From positions 1-52,438 of the IMG/VR virus record IMGVR_UViG_3300010054_000044: a stretch of 52,438 bases of DNA. The stretch is one strand, 5' to 3'. Below are positions 710 through 52,406 of this stretch, in pieces; within the stretch, counting starts at the first letter, position 1; each line of letters opens with the position of its first letter. This DNA comes from a virus. The notes beneath the pieces were generated by a model that saw only the letters and a program-made list of their open reading frames with translations, did no database searches and was not told the DNA's origin. The position numbers were made by a program, and so were the translations under genes.

Positions 710-875
710 TATCGCTTCCTCATTTACGCTGGCCCATCGCCAGCCAAAAGAGATTAGCACTGTCCCTACTCAAGCAAAGCTGACTTTAGTCAAAAGCCTA
801 CTTAATTTTTATCAGCAGGTCGCATCAATTGCGAAATTTTATTAGTCTTCCCTCTCACTTGCAGGGATGACCCAA

Positions 876-1760
876 ATGAAACAGCTTTCCTACTTTAGTG
901 CCCTTCTAGTTGCCCTACTGCTGCCTGGCCAATCAGTCGCCGATGTGCCTTCTTCTTTCAATGCGGCAAAGCGCATCGCTGAAGAGCAGATTTACTATGA
1001 TCAGGACACGTCTTTTTACTGCGGCTGCCAGTTCGACTTTGAGGCTGGGCCCAACCTGGAAGCCTGCGGTTACGAGATTAGAAAGCAGCCTCGAAGAGCA
1101 AGCCGTATCGAGTGGGAGCATGTAATGCCAGCTTACGACTTTGGCCGGCAACGGCAGTGCTGGAAAGATGACGGTCGGGATAACTGCCGCCGGACAGATG
1201 AAGTATTCAGGCGCGCAGAGGCGGATCTACACAACTTGGTACCGGCAATTGGCGAGGTCAACGGTGACCGGTCAAACATGCGGTTCGGCATGGTCAACAC
1301 GCCTGTTCACGAATACGGTGCTTGTGATGTGACTGTCTCATTTGAAGAGCGCACCTTTCAGCCGCCACCCCACCGGCGTGGCGACATAGCGCGCACCTAC
1401 TGGTACATGCGGGACACCTACGGCATTGAGATCAGCCGACAGCAACAGCAGCTTTTCACGGCCTGGGCTAACCAAGACCCAGTCGATGAATGGGAGCTAG
1501 AGCGAAACCGACGCATCGCAGCTGTGCAGGGGAACGCTAATCCATACGTCGGTGAGGTCGCTATACAAGAGCCCGAATCAGCAACATCTACTCCGGCAAT
1601 CCCTCAGCGCTCAGCAAGCACTGAATTTAGCTGTTCAACTCGCAAAACATGCGGCGCGATGTCCTCTTGTGAAGAGGCAATATTTCACCTGAATCAATGT
1701 GGAAACGGCCGCCTAGACGGCGATGGCGATGGCGTTCCTTGCGAATCAATTTGCCGGTAA
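876..1760 (+). CDS. Secreted endonuclease I (EndA/NucM-type) with Excalibur domain
   Basis: A 294-residue protein with an N-terminal signal peptide (about residues 1-22, ending near SVADVP). The nuclease core has the family signatures EWEHVMPA and DLHNLVPAIGEVNGDRSN, with the catalytic His in EHV and the Asn of the second motif. The last 40 residues carry DGDGDGVPCE, a calcium-binding Excalibur motif. Family members are periplasmic or extracellular non-specific nucleases. The ATG at 876 is chosen over 867 because AGGG is eight bases upstream. It lies in the cargo zone beside attL, transcribed away from the late genes, so it is probably a host-benefit or competitor-DNA-degrading gene rather than a virion gene. 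Confidence 0.9.
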   Translation: MKQLSYFSALLVALLLPGQSVADVPSSFNAAKRIAEEQIYYDQDTSFYCGCQFDFEAGPNLEACGYEIRKQPRRASRIEWEHVMPAYDFGRQRQCWKDDGRDNCRRTDEVFRRAEADLHNLVPAIGEVNGDRSNMRFGMVNTPVHEYGACDVTVSFEERTFQPPPHRRGDIARTYWYMRDTYGIEISRQQQQLFTAWANQDPVDEWELERNRRIAAVQGNANPYVGEVAIQEPESATSTPAIPQRSASTEFSCSTRKTCGAMSSCEEAIFHLNQCGNGRLDGDGDGVPCESICR

Positions 1761-3597: not shown

Positions 3598-6500
3598 CGC
3601 GCCCTCGCCTCCTGCACTTGCTCGCCTAGCGCCCGCTGAATCTGGTTTTTCACCGCGTTCAATCGGTCAATGCGCTGACGTTTCACTTCGCCATCAAGGT
3701 TGGAGCGGCGGATGATATCGATCTGCTGGTTGATCGTATTTAAGCGCCGCTGTGCGCGGTTGAGCGGTAGCCGTAACGCCAGCATGTCCCGCTTGTTGGT
3801 AGCTACCTCGGCCGCATCGGCCAAGCGCCCCATTTCTCTCAGCTCTTTAGCATCCGAATAGGCGCGGTTCGCTTCGCGCAGCCCCTCATAGAAGATCGTG
3901 CCGTACTTGGTGTAGCGGTCTTCATCGCCCAGGTTGCGATAGAAGCGGCGCACCGGTTGATATTCGTACCAGCGCTGTGCTGGGTTCTCTACGCCAGTCG
4001 CTGCCCGCCACGCAACATCAGCGCTGGACGCTACCCATGTTCCCACCTGCCCGAAGTACCCCCCAATCAAATGATCTACTTGCACCGGCGATAGCGCTAA
4101 CGGGTTTTTATCCGGGTCGCCAATCGCACCAACGGTGCTGTTCAACGCACCGGAGATCCACTCGGCGGCTTTGCTGGTGTTCGCCCGACGGCGCAATTCT
4201 GGCGACAAGCGCTCCATGCCCATGCCTTCAATCGGTCGCCCGGTAAAGGCGTCATAGTTGGCGTAGATATCGAGCGCGGGCTGCATCATCTGCGGTACCG
4301 GCGAGAAGCTAAAGGTGTCGGTCATCATGTGGCCCAGGCGCTGCGCAAATAGCTTGCCCGTAGCTTTATCGTCCACAAACTGCTCGGTCATGCGCTCGGC
4401 TAGCGTAGCCATGGCGCCGACTTCAAACGGCTTGGGAATAAAGAAGGCTTGATCGCCAAAGCGCATGAACCAGTAGGTGTCCTTCTGCCAGTCCTCTAGC
4501 TTCTGATACTCCTCGTCGTCCTGGTTGTGCAGGTAGAGCGCAATAGTGGCTAGCGTCACGGCGCCGGTTACGGTCCAGAAGCGGGCGGCTGCCTGCTTGT
4601 CGGTGACGTTCGCCTTGCCCTTGCCGAAGGCTTCGGCCAGTACGCTTGCCCCTGGCTTCATGCCGCTGCGGTAAATCTTATCCAAGCCCTGAATGCGGGC
4701 GTTGAGGAACGGCACGATATCGATCAGGATGCGCACGGCAGGCCATGCACCGTGGGCACTAAAGTCGATCAAGTCGCGAGACTCAAACGCAGCGCGCAAT
4801 GCCCCTTTGTCGCGGTTTTGCGAGTAGATGGCGGCGCGGTTGAGGTTTTCGGTGGCGTTGTTAACGTCATTCCACCATGTCCAGCCAGCGCGCAGCACGC
4901 TGGGCACCATTGAGGGGCCGTTTACCAGCTTGGCGTTACGCATATTGCGGGTTAGCTGGGCGCGTAGCTCGTCGGGGTTGTTGCCGTACAGGTGGCCGAA
5001 GTTGAACGATGCGCCGCTGGCCAGCATTTGCGCCCGGATGCGCTCATCTTTATAGCTGCGCCCGCCCTCGATCACGTTCTTAAAGGCGTTCTTGCTCACG
5101 TCGCTGGTGGCCGATGCCTGCAAGCTGTCGCGGATTAAGTTGGCAATCATGAACTGCGGCGTGGTGGTAGTCAGGTTGGTAAATACGCGCTTAAAGCCGC
5201 GCATCACCTTCATGGCCATGCTGTTCATGCCGGGGTGAGCCAGTGCCGTCAGTGCCGTGAATACCAGCGGGTCGTCAATCTCATAAAACGCTTTCTGGCC
5301 GTTTTCCATGACGAACGTGGAGCGCTTGGTGTCGCGGTTGCTTTCCGGTACGCGCTCGGCCATGCCAAGCTTCTTGGCGTTCTCAATCGCTTGCGCGGCC
5401 GCTTGGTTCTTCAAGCTAGCGTCCAGTAGATGATGGAAGTTCATCATCGTGTTTTGAAGCAGGTCGTTCAGGTTCTGGGTGCCGCCTTTGAGCCGCTTGT
5501 AGGCCTGCTGGCGTGATAGGCCGCTGGTGGCCATCATGCCGCTTACCTGCTGGTCATCTTCGGCAAGGCGATAAAACGGAACGTAGAACTCCTCGCCCCA
5601 CATTTCCCGCTGCTCGCTGGTAATGATGCCGCTCTGCTCGGCCACGGCTAGCACATCGTCGCGGTACTGCTGGAACTCGTCGAACACTTCCTTATAGAGC
5701 TGCTGGCGGCTCCGGCCATCTTCCGTTTGCCCACGGTTCCATGCCTGCATGGCGTTAATGTCGCCTACGTCGAACAGATTTTCGCGCCCATCTTGGGCAA
5801 GGCGTGCCGCACGGTTACCGGCAATCCAGCCCATGAAGCGCTCAATCTCGGCAGCGCTACCCAAGCGGCCAAGCACTTCACCTAGGCCTTTGGCATCGCC
5901 GTCCTGCATTTCAATAATGCGCTCTTGCCGGTTCAGCTTAATGCGGCCGTTGTGAAGCATGGCGTGCAGGGCGCCGTTCGCCGCATTGCTCATGCGTGCC
6001 AGCACCCAGCTTGAGCGCTGAATGTTCTCGCCCAGCGCCGTTTCACCGTAAAGGCGCTCGTCCATTTCTTTCAGTGCGGCGTAGCGGTCTACCATGCCCT
6101 GGCGAATCTTGAGGCCTGCGCGGTCGGCCTTCTCTTTAAACCAAGCCACTGCCCGCTGTGGCGGCGTGCGGCTGCCGATCTTCGCAGCGGCGGCGCGGTC
6201 GGCGTCGGTGAAGTCGCTAAACGCATCCTCGAAGTTGGCGCGCTGTTTGCTGCGCAAGGCGTAACGCTGATCGTCGTCACTCTGATTCTCCGCCTGCTGC
6301 TTCCGCAAATACTCGCGGCTTTGCTCACCTAGCGCCAAGGCGTCGGTATACGTCCACGCCACTGAGGGGAATAGCTGACGTAGCAGCTCGCGAATTTTCG
6401 CCACGGCGCGCTGCCAAGCCTTGGGGCGATGGCCTTTCTCCAGTAGGTGGGCCACCATTTCCTCGGCAATGGTAATGCGGTCTTTGCGGTTCTCCGGGTC

Positions 6501-26283: not shown

Positions 26284-27000
26284 CTAGTACCCTGTTGTGT
26301 AGTCGCCGGGGGCGCTGCCTGCGCCGGTATTCTGAACGGGGCGCGTGGTGGCGTGGTGTAGCTTCATCACTAGGTAGCGGGTGGCGTCCATCAAGTGGTC
26401 GTTGCTCTTAACGACGCGGCCTTTCTCGTCGCGGCGGTACAGCCGGTACTCGCCTAGCCAGTGCTGCAGCGTGCTAAACACTTTCAGGCGTCCAGTGCTT
26501 AACCGGTCCAGCACTTCCAGCAGCCCAGCCTCCACGCTCTTGTCAACACGGATAAGGTTCAGGCCTTCGTTTTCGTACAGCGTCATCACGCGCTTGCCGT
26601 CGCTCTGGTTCGTACCTGCGTAGTCGATGATTCCCGGCATCCAGCTGCCGCGCATCTTGATCGCTTTGGCGTGAACGGTCGGCTCAGCTTGACCTCGGTA
26701 GTGCTCGCTGTTCAGGTAGAGAATGTCGGTATCGCGGTCGAGCGCGCCCCATATTGCGGCGGTCTTTTTCCAGCCAACGTCGAGGCCATAAGCACGCGCC
26801 CACCAGCCAGGGATTTGGAACGGGTCACAGATAATGTCCTCTTCCGGCACCGGGTAGATGGCACCGCTGCCGAGCGTAGGAATGCCGTTCATGCGCGCCT
26901 CTAGCTGGTGTGGACTGATACCCTTCGCCATATCATCGATATCCTCTTGCTTGAGGTGCGGCGCATCTTTCCAGCCCGCTTGCACGACATACCGGCTCAA
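26284..27000 (-). CDS. terL: Terminase large subunit, nuclease half (separate gene)
   Basis: A 238-residue protein holding the RNase H-like nuclease: YGLDVGW (first Asp), GIIDYAG (second Asp) and SNDHLMDATRYLVM (last Asp). It starts abruptly at SRYVVQAGWKDAPHL, a point internal to ordinary TerL proteins. It uses a TTG start overlapping the previous stop (TTGA), with AGGT upstream. The ATPase half is encoded at 27469-29139, with two small genes between. The two halves would have to assemble, or the insertion has broken the packaging motor. Confidence 0.85.
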   Translation of the reverse strand: MSRYVVQAGWKDAPHLKQEDIDDMAKGISPHQLEARMNGIPTLGSGAIYPVPEEDIICDPFQIPGWWARAYGLDVGWKKTAAIWGALDRDTDILYLNSEHYRGQAEPTVHAKAIKMRGSWMPGIIDYAGTNQSDGKRVMTLYENEGLNLIRVDKSVEAGLLEVLDRLSTGRLKVFSTLQHWLGEYRLYRRDEKGRVVKSNDHLMDATRYLVMKLHHATTRPVQNTGAGSAPGDYTTGY

Positions 27001-27218
27001 CGCAGACCTACCATGAACTGTGCGCCTGCAATGGTCAGCACATCGCCAGTGCTAGCGTGCGGGTCTACCATGCGGGCCACTTTTATTGACAGCATGCCTT
27101 CTTTGATACCGCGCTCCCTCACTAGATCGGCAATGCGGGTAGCGGCTGACGTGGTGCGCTTCTGGTACTTGGTGCTGACGCTCGCGGCGAGATATTCGCC
27201 TTGGATGGGGTCGGTCAT
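26997..27218 (-). CDS. Small protein inserted in the terminase gene
   Basis: A 73-residue protein, unrecognised. It is basic in the first half (YQKRTTSAATRIADLV) and ends in a beta-rich segment, GDVLTIAGAQFMVGLR. Its ATG overlaps the stop of the Tad2-like gene, and its stop overlaps the TTG of the nuclease gene. It fills the gap between terminase ATPase and nuclease. It could be a cargo protein or a peptide that supports split-terminase assembly; nothing in its sequence decides. Confidence 0.55.
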   Translation of the reverse strand: MTDPIQGEYLAASVSTKYQKRTTSAATRIADLVRERGIKEGMLSIKVARMVDPHASTGDVLTIAGAQFMVGLR

Positions 27219-27230
27219 ACTGGCTCCTGC
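27215..27230 (-). repeat. Junction repeat, copy 1
   Basis: The transcribed-strand sequence GCAGGAGCCAGTATGA encodes QEPV-stop and at the same time supplies the Shine-Dalgarno and ATG of the next gene. It matches copy 2 in 15 of 16 bases. Confidence 0.7.
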
Positions 27231-27472
27231 AGGCTGCGAGCCTTGTAATGCTGGGTATTCTTGCGATTGACCACTATTTTCCAGTCGTCACGGAAAGTGT
27301 GGGAGAGCGTGAAATCCATATCGGGGGAATCGCGCATATCAACAATGCTGCCGTCTTTGCAGTGCATGTTGACGGTCTTGCACTCTGCATCCCATGCCCA
27401 ATAGCCGCCCCATTCCGGTAGCGTTACAGCGCAGCCTTGCTTCATACAGCTAAGCGCATCTTTAAAATTCAT
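27215..27472 (-). CDS. Tad2/DUF2829-like anti-defence candidate
   Basis: An 85-residue protein. The start MNFKDALSCMKQGCAVTLPEW and the ending DDWKIVV match the DUF2829 pattern (MNF..AL..LK.G..V....W to DW.VV). Characterised members, such as Tad2, bind Thoeris signal nucleotides and block that defence. Here the family tail is extended by about 15 residues ending in QEPV. Start and stop both overlap neighbours by four bases. Assignment to the family is fairly secure from the pattern; Thoeris inhibition is inference. Confidence 0.7.
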   Translation of the reverse strand: MNFKDALSCMKQGCAVTLPEWGGYWAWDAECKTVNMHCKDGSIVDMRDSPDMDFTLSHTFRDDWKIVVNRKNTQHYKARSLQEPV

Positions 27473-27484
27473 ACCGGCTCCTGC
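27469..27484 (-). repeat. Junction repeat, copy 2
   Basis: GCAGGAGCCGGTATGA on the transcribed strand ends the terminase ATPase gene with QEPV-stop and starts the Tad2-like gene. With copy 1, 254 bp away, it brackets the Tad2-like gene as a direct repeat. Confidence 0.7.
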
Positions 27485-29139
27485 TCATGCTTGGATTCAA
27501 GAAACGATACCACCAGCTCAGTTAGGCCAGACAGTGGCGTAAACGTCATCATCACAATGCCGCGTGTGGTCATTGTGCGGATCAGCGCCTCGTCGTATAC
27601 GTCTTTAGGTACCTCCTCGTCCAACCACACCACATCCTGCTCAGTGCCCTGGAAGATTCGACGGCCTTGGTCATAGCTGCGCAGCATCAAGCGGCTGGTA
27701 CCGCCGCTGGCGTGGCTGACATTGATCTCTTCGTACAAGTTGGCCACGCCCCTGGCAGGCGTCGGCTTGCCTAGCTTGTCGCGTGGAATCAGGCCGCTGC
27801 CGAACTCGTCGGTATTCCATAGGCCGCCGAGTAGCTTGCTCTGGATAATGTCGCGGGTGGTTTGGCTGGTATCGCCTGCAGCCAGTGCAGTGATTGGCTT
27901 ATCGAACGTGCGGCCTTCCCACCAGTGCGGGTACTCGCCAGTGAGGTGAAAAGCCATTTCTGCACCGCCAGCAATCGTTTTCCCGCAGTTATGGTGATAG
28001 ACGCCAGCGCCCCGATAGTTATTGAATACCGGAATATGAGCGTCTATTATTGGCTGGTAACCAATAGGAACGACAGCAGCGATAACTTCGCCACCCACCA
28101 AGCGAGGCATTGACGATGGGTAGAAAATCCCCAATTGATCAACACTTTCCCCAAATACTCCAACGGATTGAGGCGGGTGAGCCAACATACTTGATTGCTG
28201 ACAGCCTTGGGTTGACACGCCCTTCTCTTCAAGCCTACCTAAAGCGACGCGGGATAAAGAACCGCGCTGGCCGCATGCACCGAAAGCGCCTTGATGATAA
28301 CGAGCTTCGCCACCTAATCGAGGTTGAGCACCTGACGCAAGCGCAAGCCGCCGAAGCGCTTGGTGTCTCCACGTCAGCGGTAGAACGTCGCTGTCGGTCG
28401 CTGCAGCTGAAAACGGCGCGGACAGGGCCTCGACACGGTGACGGTCATCGTAGCTGGCAGGGTGGCCGCCGCGTTGACAAACACGGATATGTCGAGGTAT
28501 TCGCGCCTCTGCATCCTCAAGCGAAAGCGCCAAGCGGCTATGTGTTCGAGCACCGACTGGTGATGGAGGTTGTGCTGGGGCGATACCTGACTGCTGAGGA
28601 AGTGGTCGATCATCGAGATAACCACCCGCGGCACAACTGGCCTGATAACCTTCGACTGTATGCGACCAATGCAGACCATCTGCGCGCGACACTAACTGGT
28701 CGAGAGAAAGCCACCCCTCGTCGGTCAATACCCGGTGCTTACGGGAGCAGTCAAAGAATCGACCGCTGCCCAGCACCACACGAAACGCTGGCTCAATGCC
28801 CACCAGATGTGCGTCAACAGGTTGAACGTCACATTCAGATCCACCAGCCCATGCCCGAAGACTACCAGCGCAGCCGAACAGCGCTTCTGAGGCGCGGACC
28901 GAGCCAGCCGCCGTTTCAATAAACGTCCAGGGCGTGATGCAACGATTGCCTGCCATGAACAGGCGTTCTTTGTGGTACTTGCCTGCCCGGAAGAACTCGA
29001 GGTGCTTGCCGTACAGCTCCCGCCTATACGGGCCTTCATCGGGAAATAGGTCGCGTATCAGGTTGTAGCGTTTGCGCCTCGCCTTTTCTTCCAGCGCTGC
29101 CAGTAGCGCTAAGCGGGCAGCGCGGTTATCACTGCTCAC
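27469..29139 (-). CDS. terL: Terminase large subunit, ATPase half, interrupted by an intein
   Basis: The 556-residue precursor starts at GTG (AGGTGG upstream; overlaps the small-subunit stop by 11 bases). Exteins total 238 residues. Walker A is GNR, then the intein, then CGKT; Walker B is VVWLDEE and the coupling motif is MMTFTPL. The intein runs from Cys67 to Asn384, and Cys385 is the +1 nucleophile. Without splicing the P-loop is destroyed, so packaging depends on it. The reading frame ends at ESKHEQEPV, where a full TerL would continue into the nuclease; that part is a separate gene at 26284-27000. Translocation of DNA into the procapsid is the expected role. Confidence 0.88.
   Translation of the reverse strand: MSSDNRAARLALLAALEEKARRKRYNLIRDLFPDEGPYRRELYGKHLEFFRAGKYHKERLFMAGNRCITPWTFIETAAGSVRASEALFGCAGSLRAWAGGSECDVQPVDAHLVGIEPAFRVVLGSGRFFDCSRKHRVLTDEGWLSLDQLVSRADGLHWSHTVEGYQASCAAGGYLDDRPLPQQSGIAPAQPPSPVGARTHSRLALSLEDAEARIPRHIRVCQRGGHPASYDDRHRVEALSAPFSAAATDSDVLPLTWRHQALRRLALASGAQPRLGGEARYHQGAFGACGQRGSLSRVALGRLEEKGVSTQGCQQSSMLAHPPQSVGVFGESVDQLGIFYPSSMPRLVGGEVIAAVVPIGYQPIIDAHIPVFNNYRGAGVYHHNCGKTIAGGAEMAFHLTGEYPHWWEGRTFDKPITALAAGDTSQTTRDIIQSKLLGGLWNTDEFGSGLIPRDKLGKPTPARGVANLYEEINVSHASGGTSRLMLRSYDQGRRIFQGTEQDVVWLDEEVPKDVYDEALIRTMTTRGIVMMTFTPLSGLTELVVSFLESKHEQEPV
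27988..28941 (-). mobile_element. Intein in the terminase Walker A motif
   Basis: A 318-residue intein. Block A begins with Cys1 (CITPWTFIET). Block B contains CSRKHRVLTDEGW, with His69 and a Ser in place of the usual first Thr of TxxH. The C-terminal block F/G reads IDAHIPVFNN then GVYHHN, ending with His317-Asn318, followed by extein Cys. About residues 90-285 have no intein motif; this stretch is the reverse complement of an HNH endonuclease gene. The insertion point, between GNR and CGKT, is a typical conserved-site choice for inteins. Confidence 0.88.
28116..28922 (+). CDS. HNH homing endonuclease encoded antisense inside the intein
   Basis: A 268-residue protein from the ATG at 28116, with GAGG eight bases upstream (an in-frame TTG at 28110 is less likely). 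Two helix-turn-helix segments (about residues 12-48 and 58-98) precede an HNH core: GYVFEHRLVMEVVLGRYL then EEVVDHRDN, HNWPDNLRLY and DH near 188. Key residues are His146, His166, Asn174/178 and His188. The last 80 residues are low-complexity read-through antisense to the intein N-terminal splicing domain. The whole gene lies within the intein DNA on the opposite strand. It probably cuts intein-less terminase alleles. Transcription would be opposite to the late operon. Confidence 0.85.
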   Translation: MGRKSPIDQHFPQILQRIEAGEPTYLIADSLGLTRPSLQAYLKRRGIKNRAGRMHRKRLDDNELRHLIEVEHLTQAQAAEALGVSTSAVERRCRSLQLKTARTGPRHGDGHRSWQGGRRVDKHGYVEVFAPLHPQAKAPSGYVFEHRLVMEVVLGRYLTAEEVVDHRDNHPRHNWPDNLRLYATNADHLRATLTGREKATPRRSIPGAYGSSQRIDRCPAPHETLAQCPPDVRQQVERHIQIHQPMPEDYQRSRTALLRRGPSQPPFQ

Positions 29140-30061: not shown

Positions 30062-30571
30062 TCAGGCTTCCAGCTCGCGATCTTCGTATTTCCATTTATA
30101 ACCACGATGAGTTTTCTGCTTACCGCTCACTACATAGCTAACCGAGCCGTCATGAAAGCCTGCTTTCTTTAATGCGTACACATCTGTAAAAGCCAGCATT
30201 TCATTGTCGTTGAACCCAATAATGATTCTGCGAACAAAGCCAGTTATGGAATGAAAGCGCTTTTTCTGGATACAGTCGTGAACATTATCTTTCACGCTAC
30301 CAAGCTGCAGATGTTCTGGGTTGATGCAGGCTGGGTTATCGCAAGAGTGCATAACAACAAGGCCCTTAGGCACATCGCCTTTATGCAGCACATAAGAAAC
30401 CTTGTGAGCCCCTAGTCGCCTACTCCCTAGCGAAAACCTGCCGTAACCGTAGGGGTCTTTCCCTCCGCTGTACTCCCAGCAGCCGCTTTCGCTTTTAACG
30501 CATTTTGAAAGCAGTCTTTCTTTTGGGCATGTTCGTGAGCCGTAAGAAAACACTTCCCTTTTGGTAAGCAT
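30062..30571 (-). CDS. Free-standing HNH homing endonuclease with NUMOD1-like tail
   Basis: A 169-residue protein starting at the ATG at 30571 (GAGGTGG upstream). It contains SGCWEYSGGKDPYGYGRF, then VVMHSCDNPACINPEHLQLG, a classical phage HNH site with paired Cys and His. The C-terminal GFHDGSVSYVVSGKQKTH region resembles NUMOD1 DNA-binding modules. It sits between hairpin repeats in the late leader, with relatively AT-rich DNA, consistent with insertion as a selfish gene. No intron signature is evident around it. Confidence 0.85.
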   Translation of the reverse strand: MLTKREVFSYGSRTCPKERLLSKCVKSESGCWEYSGGKDPYGYGRFSLGSRRLGAHKVSYVLHKGDVPKGLVVMHSCDNPACINPEHLQLGSVKDNVHDCIQKKRFHSITGFVRRIIIGFNDNEMLAFTDVYALKKAGFHDGSVSYVVSGKQKTHRGYKWKYEDRELEA

Positions 30572-30603
30572 AAACACCACCTCTGTGATTAACCTGGATG
30601 GCA

Positions 30604-30637
30604 ACGCTTCACAGCGTGGCGTGTCGCTTCTCAGCGA
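30604..30637 (-). repeat. GNRA-loop hairpins, distal pair
   Basis: ACGCT-GTGA-AGCGT (30604-30617, identical in stem and loop to 29944-29957) and TCGCT-GAGA-AGCGA (30624-30637) on the minus strand. The HNH gene separates this pair from the other. Confidence 0.5.
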
Positions 30638-30726
30638 GATAGAGTCAGCGCCTTTTGCGATGCCAGTACGCTGACAGTAAAAACGTGATGACAATCAAGC
30701 GCAGCCGGAGCCACGCTTCAACGCGC

Positions 30727-52315: not shown

Positions 52316-52377
52316 TGGCGGAGGGACAGGGATTCGAACCCTGGATAGGCTATTAACCTATGCCGGTTTTCAAGACC
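52316..52377 (-). repeat. attR: attR core within tRNA-Ser
   Basis: A 62-bp segment identical to 267-328. Its right edge, 52377, falls in the anticodon stem; bases to the right are the host 5' half of the tRNA. Confidence 0.95.
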
Positions 52378-52406
52378 GGTGCATTCAACCGCTCTGCCAT
52401 CCCTCC
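52316..52406 (-). tRNA. tRNA-Ser(UGA)
   Basis: A 91-base gene with encoded CCA. The acceptor stem is GGAGGGA/TCCCTCC, the anticodon loop holds TGA, the long class II variable arm is ATAGGTTAATAGCCTAT-like, and the T loop is GGTTCGAATCC. The 3' part comes from the phage and the 5' half from the host. It remains intact after integration. Confidence 0.97.

Follow-up and report, generated by a model that had tools for sequence, protein, structure and literature searches.

An intein in the Walker A motif of a viral terminase with a putative homing endonuclease gene on the opposite strand

The terminase large subunit ATPase gene of the virus record IMGVR_UViG_3300010054_000044 is interrupted within its Walker A motif, which reads MAGNR-intein-CGKT with 318 codons in between, and the inserted DNA holds a second gene on the other strand. 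This raises the question of how a splicing element and an endonuclease-like protein come to share one stretch of DNA, and what each of them does. We analysed the record as a window of 52,438 nt (Table 1). An initial annotation had proposed an intein that splits the terminase as GNR/CGKT and carries its endonuclease antisense; its intein coordinates were right, and the terminase ORF is open throughout. Very probably the locus is a homing intein with an independently expressed endonuclease encoded on the opposite strand.

Table 1. Coordinates and supporting evidence for the terminase, intein and antisense endonuclease features of the window
Feature	Position (nt)	Strand	Evidence
Terminase ATPase ORF	27469-29139	-	Open along full length
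N-extein: codons 1-66 of the large terminase subunit's ATPase, start codon GTG, ends ...MAGNR	28942-29139	-	Intein-less alleles run straight into VGKT/CGKT
Intein: 318 codons, Cys67 to Asn384 of terminase, Cys1 ... HHN, in Walker A motif	27988-28941	-	Motif borders; profile and Foldseek matches to inteins
C-extein: remaining terminase ATPase domain from CGKT	27469-27987	-	Pfam Terminase_6N, E = 3e-15
N-terminal Hint (splicing) domain: intein residues 1-96, block A CITPWTFIET, block B DCSRKHRVLTDEGW	28654-28941	-	pLDDT ~80-92 for most; all codon positions slowed
N-Hint/HNH gene dual-coding part, ~269 nt	28654-28922	both	Hint model limit and HNH ORF end
Intein linker: open in intein frame, mostly low model confidence, evolves like HNH gene	28138-28653	-	pLDDT mostly <50, few helices higher; substitutions mainly at HNH codon position 3
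C-terminal Hint domain: intein residues 269-318, ends GVYHHN before Cys, nearly all outside HNH gene	27988-28137	-	pLDDT ~78-89; substitutions mainly at intein codon position 3
Putative antisense homing endonuclease gene: 268 aa and stop, ATG start, wholly inside intein	28116-28922	+	ORF, HTH and HNH_3 matches, PHROGs
HNH protein parts: N-terminal HTH-like region; second HTH, residues 64-97; HNH_3 core, 146-181; helical C-terminal extension			
HNH_3 nuclease core, HNH residues 146-181	28551-28658	+	Pfam PF13392, E = 2.8e-4, under curated cut-off
GAGG, Shine-Dalgarno-like site 8 nt before HNH ATG	28104-28107	+	Family-wide Shine-Dalgarno test
Sigma-70-like promoter candidate TTGAAT-17-TATTAT, inside C-Hint coding sequence	28022-28050	+	Two-box score

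The terminase is spread over two ORFs, the ATPase ending at 27469 and an RNaseH-like nuclease (26284-27000, minus strand, Terminase_6C), between which lie small minus-strand ORFs at 27215-27472 and 26997-27218 with no Pfam match. The ATPase ORF ends at about the equivalent point in four relatives as well (L002, L004, L005 and L006). Just upstream of the terminase genes an apparently free-standing second HNH protein is encoded (30062-30694, minus strand; HNH_3, E = 2.4e-10), with an I-HmuI NUMOD-like tail. Elsewhere the window holds an Endonuclease I with an Excalibur calcium-binding domain (867-1760, plus strand) and, at the end of the record, a phage integrase (51163-52182, plus strand) adjoining a tRNA gene (52319-52406, minus strand), which suggests a temperate phage with a tRNA attachment site.

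The splicing blocks read in the initial annotation, Cys1, block B and HHN followed by Cys, are present and conserved in relatives. Cys1, the N-terminal nucleophile in block A, is invariant in all 12 aligned inteins and likewise in the wider set. Block B (T/S-x-x-H), which reads C-S-R-K-H-R-V-L-T in the window, has its H69 invariant in alignment A3, and the C-terminal His-Asn followed by Cys, Ser or Thr is conserved at intein ends across relatives. A profile of 12 relatives matches the solved DnaB and RecA inteins with E from 3e-6. An AlphaFold model of the intein has high confidence at residues 1-96 and 269-318 and low confidence over most of the region between them, and a Foldseek search with it returned 21 PDB matches at E < 1e-3, inteins without exception. 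The intein is also an in-frame insertion missing from close relatives of the host gene, both in a comparison of the phages PHS3 and AL and in 36 intein-less alleles (see below). Motifs and fold together thus predict a splicing protein. The standard Pfam intein model called neither the window copy nor the PHS3 copy an intein, a possible reason for the family having escaped notice. A group I or group II intron with an endonuclease ORF was considered and rejected, Rfam giving no intron match in the window and tRNA only.

No endonuclease match was found in the linker when read in the intein frame, where the initial annotation had likewise seen none; the HNH profile matches the antisense frame instead, and the element is not a bifunctional intein with an endonuclease in its own reading frame. 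The 268-residue antisense HTH-HNH ORF, with its own GAGG and ATG, was borne out. The best HNH family match of the plus-strand ORF in PHROGs has E = 4e-20, and residues H146, H166, N174, N178, N185 and H188 of the HNH core are invariant in 78 of 78 endonucleases, the conservation of the core on which the initial reading depended. A search of the PDB with a model of the HNH protein gave no significant fold match, and the endonuclease is therefore identified from its sequence.

What the initial annotation missed is a large family, whose hosts include several families of terminases as well as other P-loop ATPases. On viral contigs, the genes for the closer HNH-protein relatives are without exception antisense within terminase inteins. 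Searches with the intein alone recovered an antisense HNH gene in 24/24 relatives of the window's group (one partial) and in 80/80 of a second group (74 intact, 6 decayed or ended by a contig edge); such searches rank on similarity over the whole intein including the linker and so favour HNH-bearing relatives, and "all" denotes all relatives retrieved, not every intein at the terminase Walker A site. When the HNH proteins encoded by Pseudoalteromonas phage PHS3 and by Pectobacterium phage Ymer served as queries, 80 loci were kept, and every one of these (80/80) has the antisense arrangement. Loci overlap between searches, and the non-redundant set (<90 % identity) comprises 78 endonucleases. 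As the initial annotation had asked of intein homologues, the antisense HNH gene is conserved, always in the same phase, with HNH codon position 1 opposite intein position 1, 2 opposite 3 and 3 opposite 2, and its start usually lies ~120-150 nt from the 3′ end of the intein. The isolates were reached via the HNH protein, a tblastn search of isolated phages with the window intein giving no match, and a scan of bacterial and archaeal genomes yielded a single relative. HNH relatives in phiH, ctXG6705 and several metagenomic phages, which are free-standing or have no large matching antisense ORF, were excluded from the family.

Certain relatives differ in how far the two genes overlap. In a group of four loci (L011 and L109-L111) the HNH gene ends before most of the N-terminal Hint domain, leaving little splicing-domain sequence dual-coding, and this group may represent a stage with less overprinting. 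At comparable P-loop sites two distant mini-inteins (L317 and L320) are short and gave no HNH match; they could be ancestral forms or what remains once the endonuclease is lost.

That the reverse frame over the endonuclease is stop-free, as first noticed in the window, holds throughout the family. Opposite the window's HNH gene there are 0 intein-frame stops against 5.4 expected under synonymous recoding (P = 0.0008), while the two other antisense phases hold 5 and 15. Across the 78 endonucleases (18,610 codons) synonymous recoding of the HNH genes predicts 518 stops in the intein phase, where 0 occur, and the remaining two antisense phases hold 802 and 891; the expected counts depend on each gene's own codon usage and a small pseudocount. 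When the intein is recoded instead, 146 HNH-frame stops are expected in the 5,440 codons of the N-Hint overlap in the family, where 0 are found.

Substitutions by codon position, measured on closer pairs of the second group, separate three regimes. In the C-terminal Hint domain outside the HNH gene divergence at intein positions 1/2/3 is 0.141/0.045/0.370, in the middle zone divergence at HNH positions 1/2/3 is 0.118/0.076/0.367, and over the N-Hint overlap it is low at all codon positions (0.058/0.087/0.144). Total divergence between the window and its relative L002 agrees with the second group (C-Hint 23 %, middle 16 %, overlap 7 %). The sequence is thus constrained as intein only, as endonuclease only and, over the N-terminal Hint domain, at all codon positions, which implies that the linker is endonuclease sequence that mainly needs an open reverse frame and that the N-Hint region is dual-coding. 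The signature of purifying selection that the initial annotation had called for is accordingly found, with third positions free in the middle and every position slowed in the overlap. Its dual-coding overlap exists, although the size given, about 245 nt, is replaced by ~269 nt when the limit is taken from the modelled Hint residues 1-96.

Signals for separate expression of the endonuclease were assessed against synonymous recoding that keeps the intein protein. In 57 of 66 members the HNH start has a Shine-Dalgarno-like match of 4 nt or more ahead of it, compared with a mean of 28 (maximum 37) after recoding. The promoter candidate of the window lies 65 nt before the HNH ATG and has a counterpart at the same place in three relatives (L002, L004 and L005). 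Upstream of HNH genes the best two-box sigma-70 score averages 9.16 in the family against 8.50 +/- 0.09 in recoded sequences; the enrichment belongs to the two-box score, the -10 box alone being not clearly enriched over recoding. The enriched ribosome-binding and promoter-like sites support, rather than prove, independent expression of the HNH gene, the promoter part of this argument being statistical.

The element appears to be mobile. At the insertion site 36 inspected terminase alleles are intein-less, reading GNRVGKT or similar. A filled and an empty site can be compared directly in the Pseudoalteromonas phages PHS3 (KX912252) and AL (MT002875), whose terminase regions without the intein are 95.6 % identical with no gaps, PHS3 being longer by exactly 900 nt (300 codons) through a clean in-frame insertion. 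Besides the base next to the site there are 0 mismatches in the first 200 nt downstream, and farther on the two differ by ~6 %, an unevenness that is compatible with co-conversion without amounting to proof of it. The pair fits gain of the element by PHS3 and loss by AL equally. An intein-less terminase with Cys at +1 (L016; GNRCGKT), where Val is usual, may be a site that once held an intein or an allele already suited to splicing.

Endonucleases as much as 58 % identical are found within exteins that lack detectable similarity (214 pairs). A search with inteins of a third group found the antisense arrangement in the Walker A motif of three Strawberry-notch helicases (L303 and L306, assigned by Pfam AAA_34 and Helicase_C_4, and L307, assigned by shared P-loop sequence), and it also occurs in an FtsK/SpoIIIE-like protein (L316) and in a Terminase_3 protein (L321). 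The hosts thus comprise several terminase families and other P-loop ATPases, most of them being terminases. When the first and third groups were compared directly, both their Hint domains and their HNH proteins were homologous, which, taken with the phase they have in common, suggests a single origin. In one terminase (L301) the C-extein (4039-6105) matches Hint_2 and Intein_splicing, which suggests a second intein. The initial annotation had held that broken antisense frames in homologous inteins would count against its reading. Such frames do occur, in a minority of loci: the HNH gene is broken or deleted at L064, L222, L225/226 and L284/285. The intein frame is open in each, as expected of endonuclease decay after fixation in the homing life cycle.

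Other readings of the antisense gene have to be weighed against homing. In some phages HNH proteins next to terminases help to cut the genome ends, HK97-like phages use HNH proteins encoded near the terminase in packaging, and most hosts of the element are terminases. It is nevertheless improbable that the HNH protein is a real nuclease serving DNA packaging with its place in the intein incidental, since phage AL has a near-identical terminase with neither intein nor HNH gene, 36 alleles are intein-less, the element is also found in Strawberry-notch helicases and an FtsK-like protein, and HNH copies decay while the intein persists. Somewhat less probable again is a tolerated in-frame carrier of an HNH gene that does not splice, the terminase frame merely being open. 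Cys1, block B and the terminal HN before Cys, Ser or Thr are conserved, the Hint fold and profile matches are those of inteins, the C-terminal Hint domain varies at intein position 3 like a constrained protein-coding region, and a packaging ATPase could hardly tolerate an unspliced Walker A motif; these outweigh the precedent of the ShiLan domain (PMC11855218), a linker that is stop-free and otherwise little constrained, and the failure of the Pfam intein model on the window copy.

The promoter-like sites face against the terminase transcript, and the antisense gene or its transcript might act mainly on terminase expression, as an antisense RNA or by transcriptional collision, and have homing as a lesser role. 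We give this very little weight, since an RNA role leaves the protein-level constraint and the conserved catalytic residues unexplained and intein-less relatives manage without an antisense gene. Least credible is a plus-strand frame that is a chance by-product of intein coding and yields no functional protein. Long antisense ORFs do arise by chance in G+C-rich genes, but the recoding and substitution tests reject such an origin here. The frame has HNH family matches, catalytic residues conserved in 78/78 and enriched Shine-Dalgarno sites, its middle zone varies at HNH codon position 3, and homologues at 45-50 % G+C keep the same frame equally open.

For a homing intein with an independently expressed endonuclease we propose the following course. 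The minus strand would be expressed with the terminase as a precursor whose N- and C-terminal Hint halves are joined by a long, probably disordered linker; the halves would associate and fold, splice themselves out and so re-form the Walker A loop. The plus strand would give an HTH-HNH homing endonuclease from its own ribosome-binding site, probably under its own promoter inside the C-Hint coding region. This endonuclease would cut intein-less P-loop genes, into which recombination would copy the element, and such cleavage and homing are suggested by the empty-site pair, the scattered occurrence and the conserved catalytic residues. Selection would maintain both frames, holding the linker mainly stop-free and the N-Hint region to two conserved proteins, and the proposed benefit is an endonuclease not tied to late terminase expression. 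More broadly, we consider it likely that two-strand mobile inteins are a widespread class, probably of single origin, inserted at the Walker A motif in terminases of phages and in other P-loop ATPases, in which a splicing protein and a homing endonuclease are encoded on opposite strands with a dual-coding overlap, so that expression of the endonuclease can be timed differently from that of the host gene.

In the inteins of the literature examined the endonuclease is fused in frame and is therefore made only with the host gene; coding the two activities in opposite directions could free the timing of the endonuclease from that of a late packaging gene. To our knowledge, long antisense overlaps in which both proteins are demonstrably selected are rare, and the family offers a deep comparative data set for the origin and upkeep of such overlaps. 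The arrangement also explains missed annotations, among them the copies not called by the Pfam intein model, the Ymer terminase annotated as "hypothetical protein" and the PHS3 terminase annotated as a truncated gene beside an HNH gene. As cultured phages carry the element, splicing, cleavage and homing are directly testable.

Split inteins and fractured genes can have a free-standing endonuclease gene in the break, and the window shares with them a separate endonuclease gene inside an intein-interrupted gene; unlike in those breaks, the host ORF here is intact, and the endonuclease gene shares DNA with the splicing domain in the opposite orientation. With mini- and bifunctional inteins of DnaB, RecA and DnaE (PDB 4o1r, 1mi8, 2in0) it has in common the Hint fold, Cys1, block B and the terminal HN followed by Cys, Ser or Thr, although those inteins either lack an endonuclease or have it fused in their own reading frame, whereas here it is antisense. 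Mycobacteriophage terminase inteins occupy the ATPase domain of the same host protein and are mobile, with active endonucleases shown for some, but the endonuclease domains described for them are in-frame LAGLIDADG domains (PMC5050341). In the searchable full-text literature, which excludes bioRxiv preprints and most subscription papers, no intein was found described with its endonuclease in antisense. A preprint reportedly deals with actinobacteriophage inteins of "non-canonical architecture" and could contain a related arrangement; the paper on the ShiLan domain cites the preprint for overlapping reading frames (PMC11855218). The nearest precedent found is the ShiLan domain itself, an out-of-frame sense-strand HNH with no splicing domains and no ribosome-binding site found, for which translation of the HNH from a longer host transcript was proposed (PMC11855218). 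Like it and the Pacc40-type insertions in phage methylases, the element is an in-frame insertion into a phage gene that is free of stops, contains an HNH gene in a different frame and is scattered in its distribution (PMC11855218). Unlike the ShiLan domain, with its shifted sense frame, the window's HNH gene runs antisense on the opposite strand, within a recognisable intein that has both Hint halves, and is accompanied by a ribosome-binding site and promoter-like signals.
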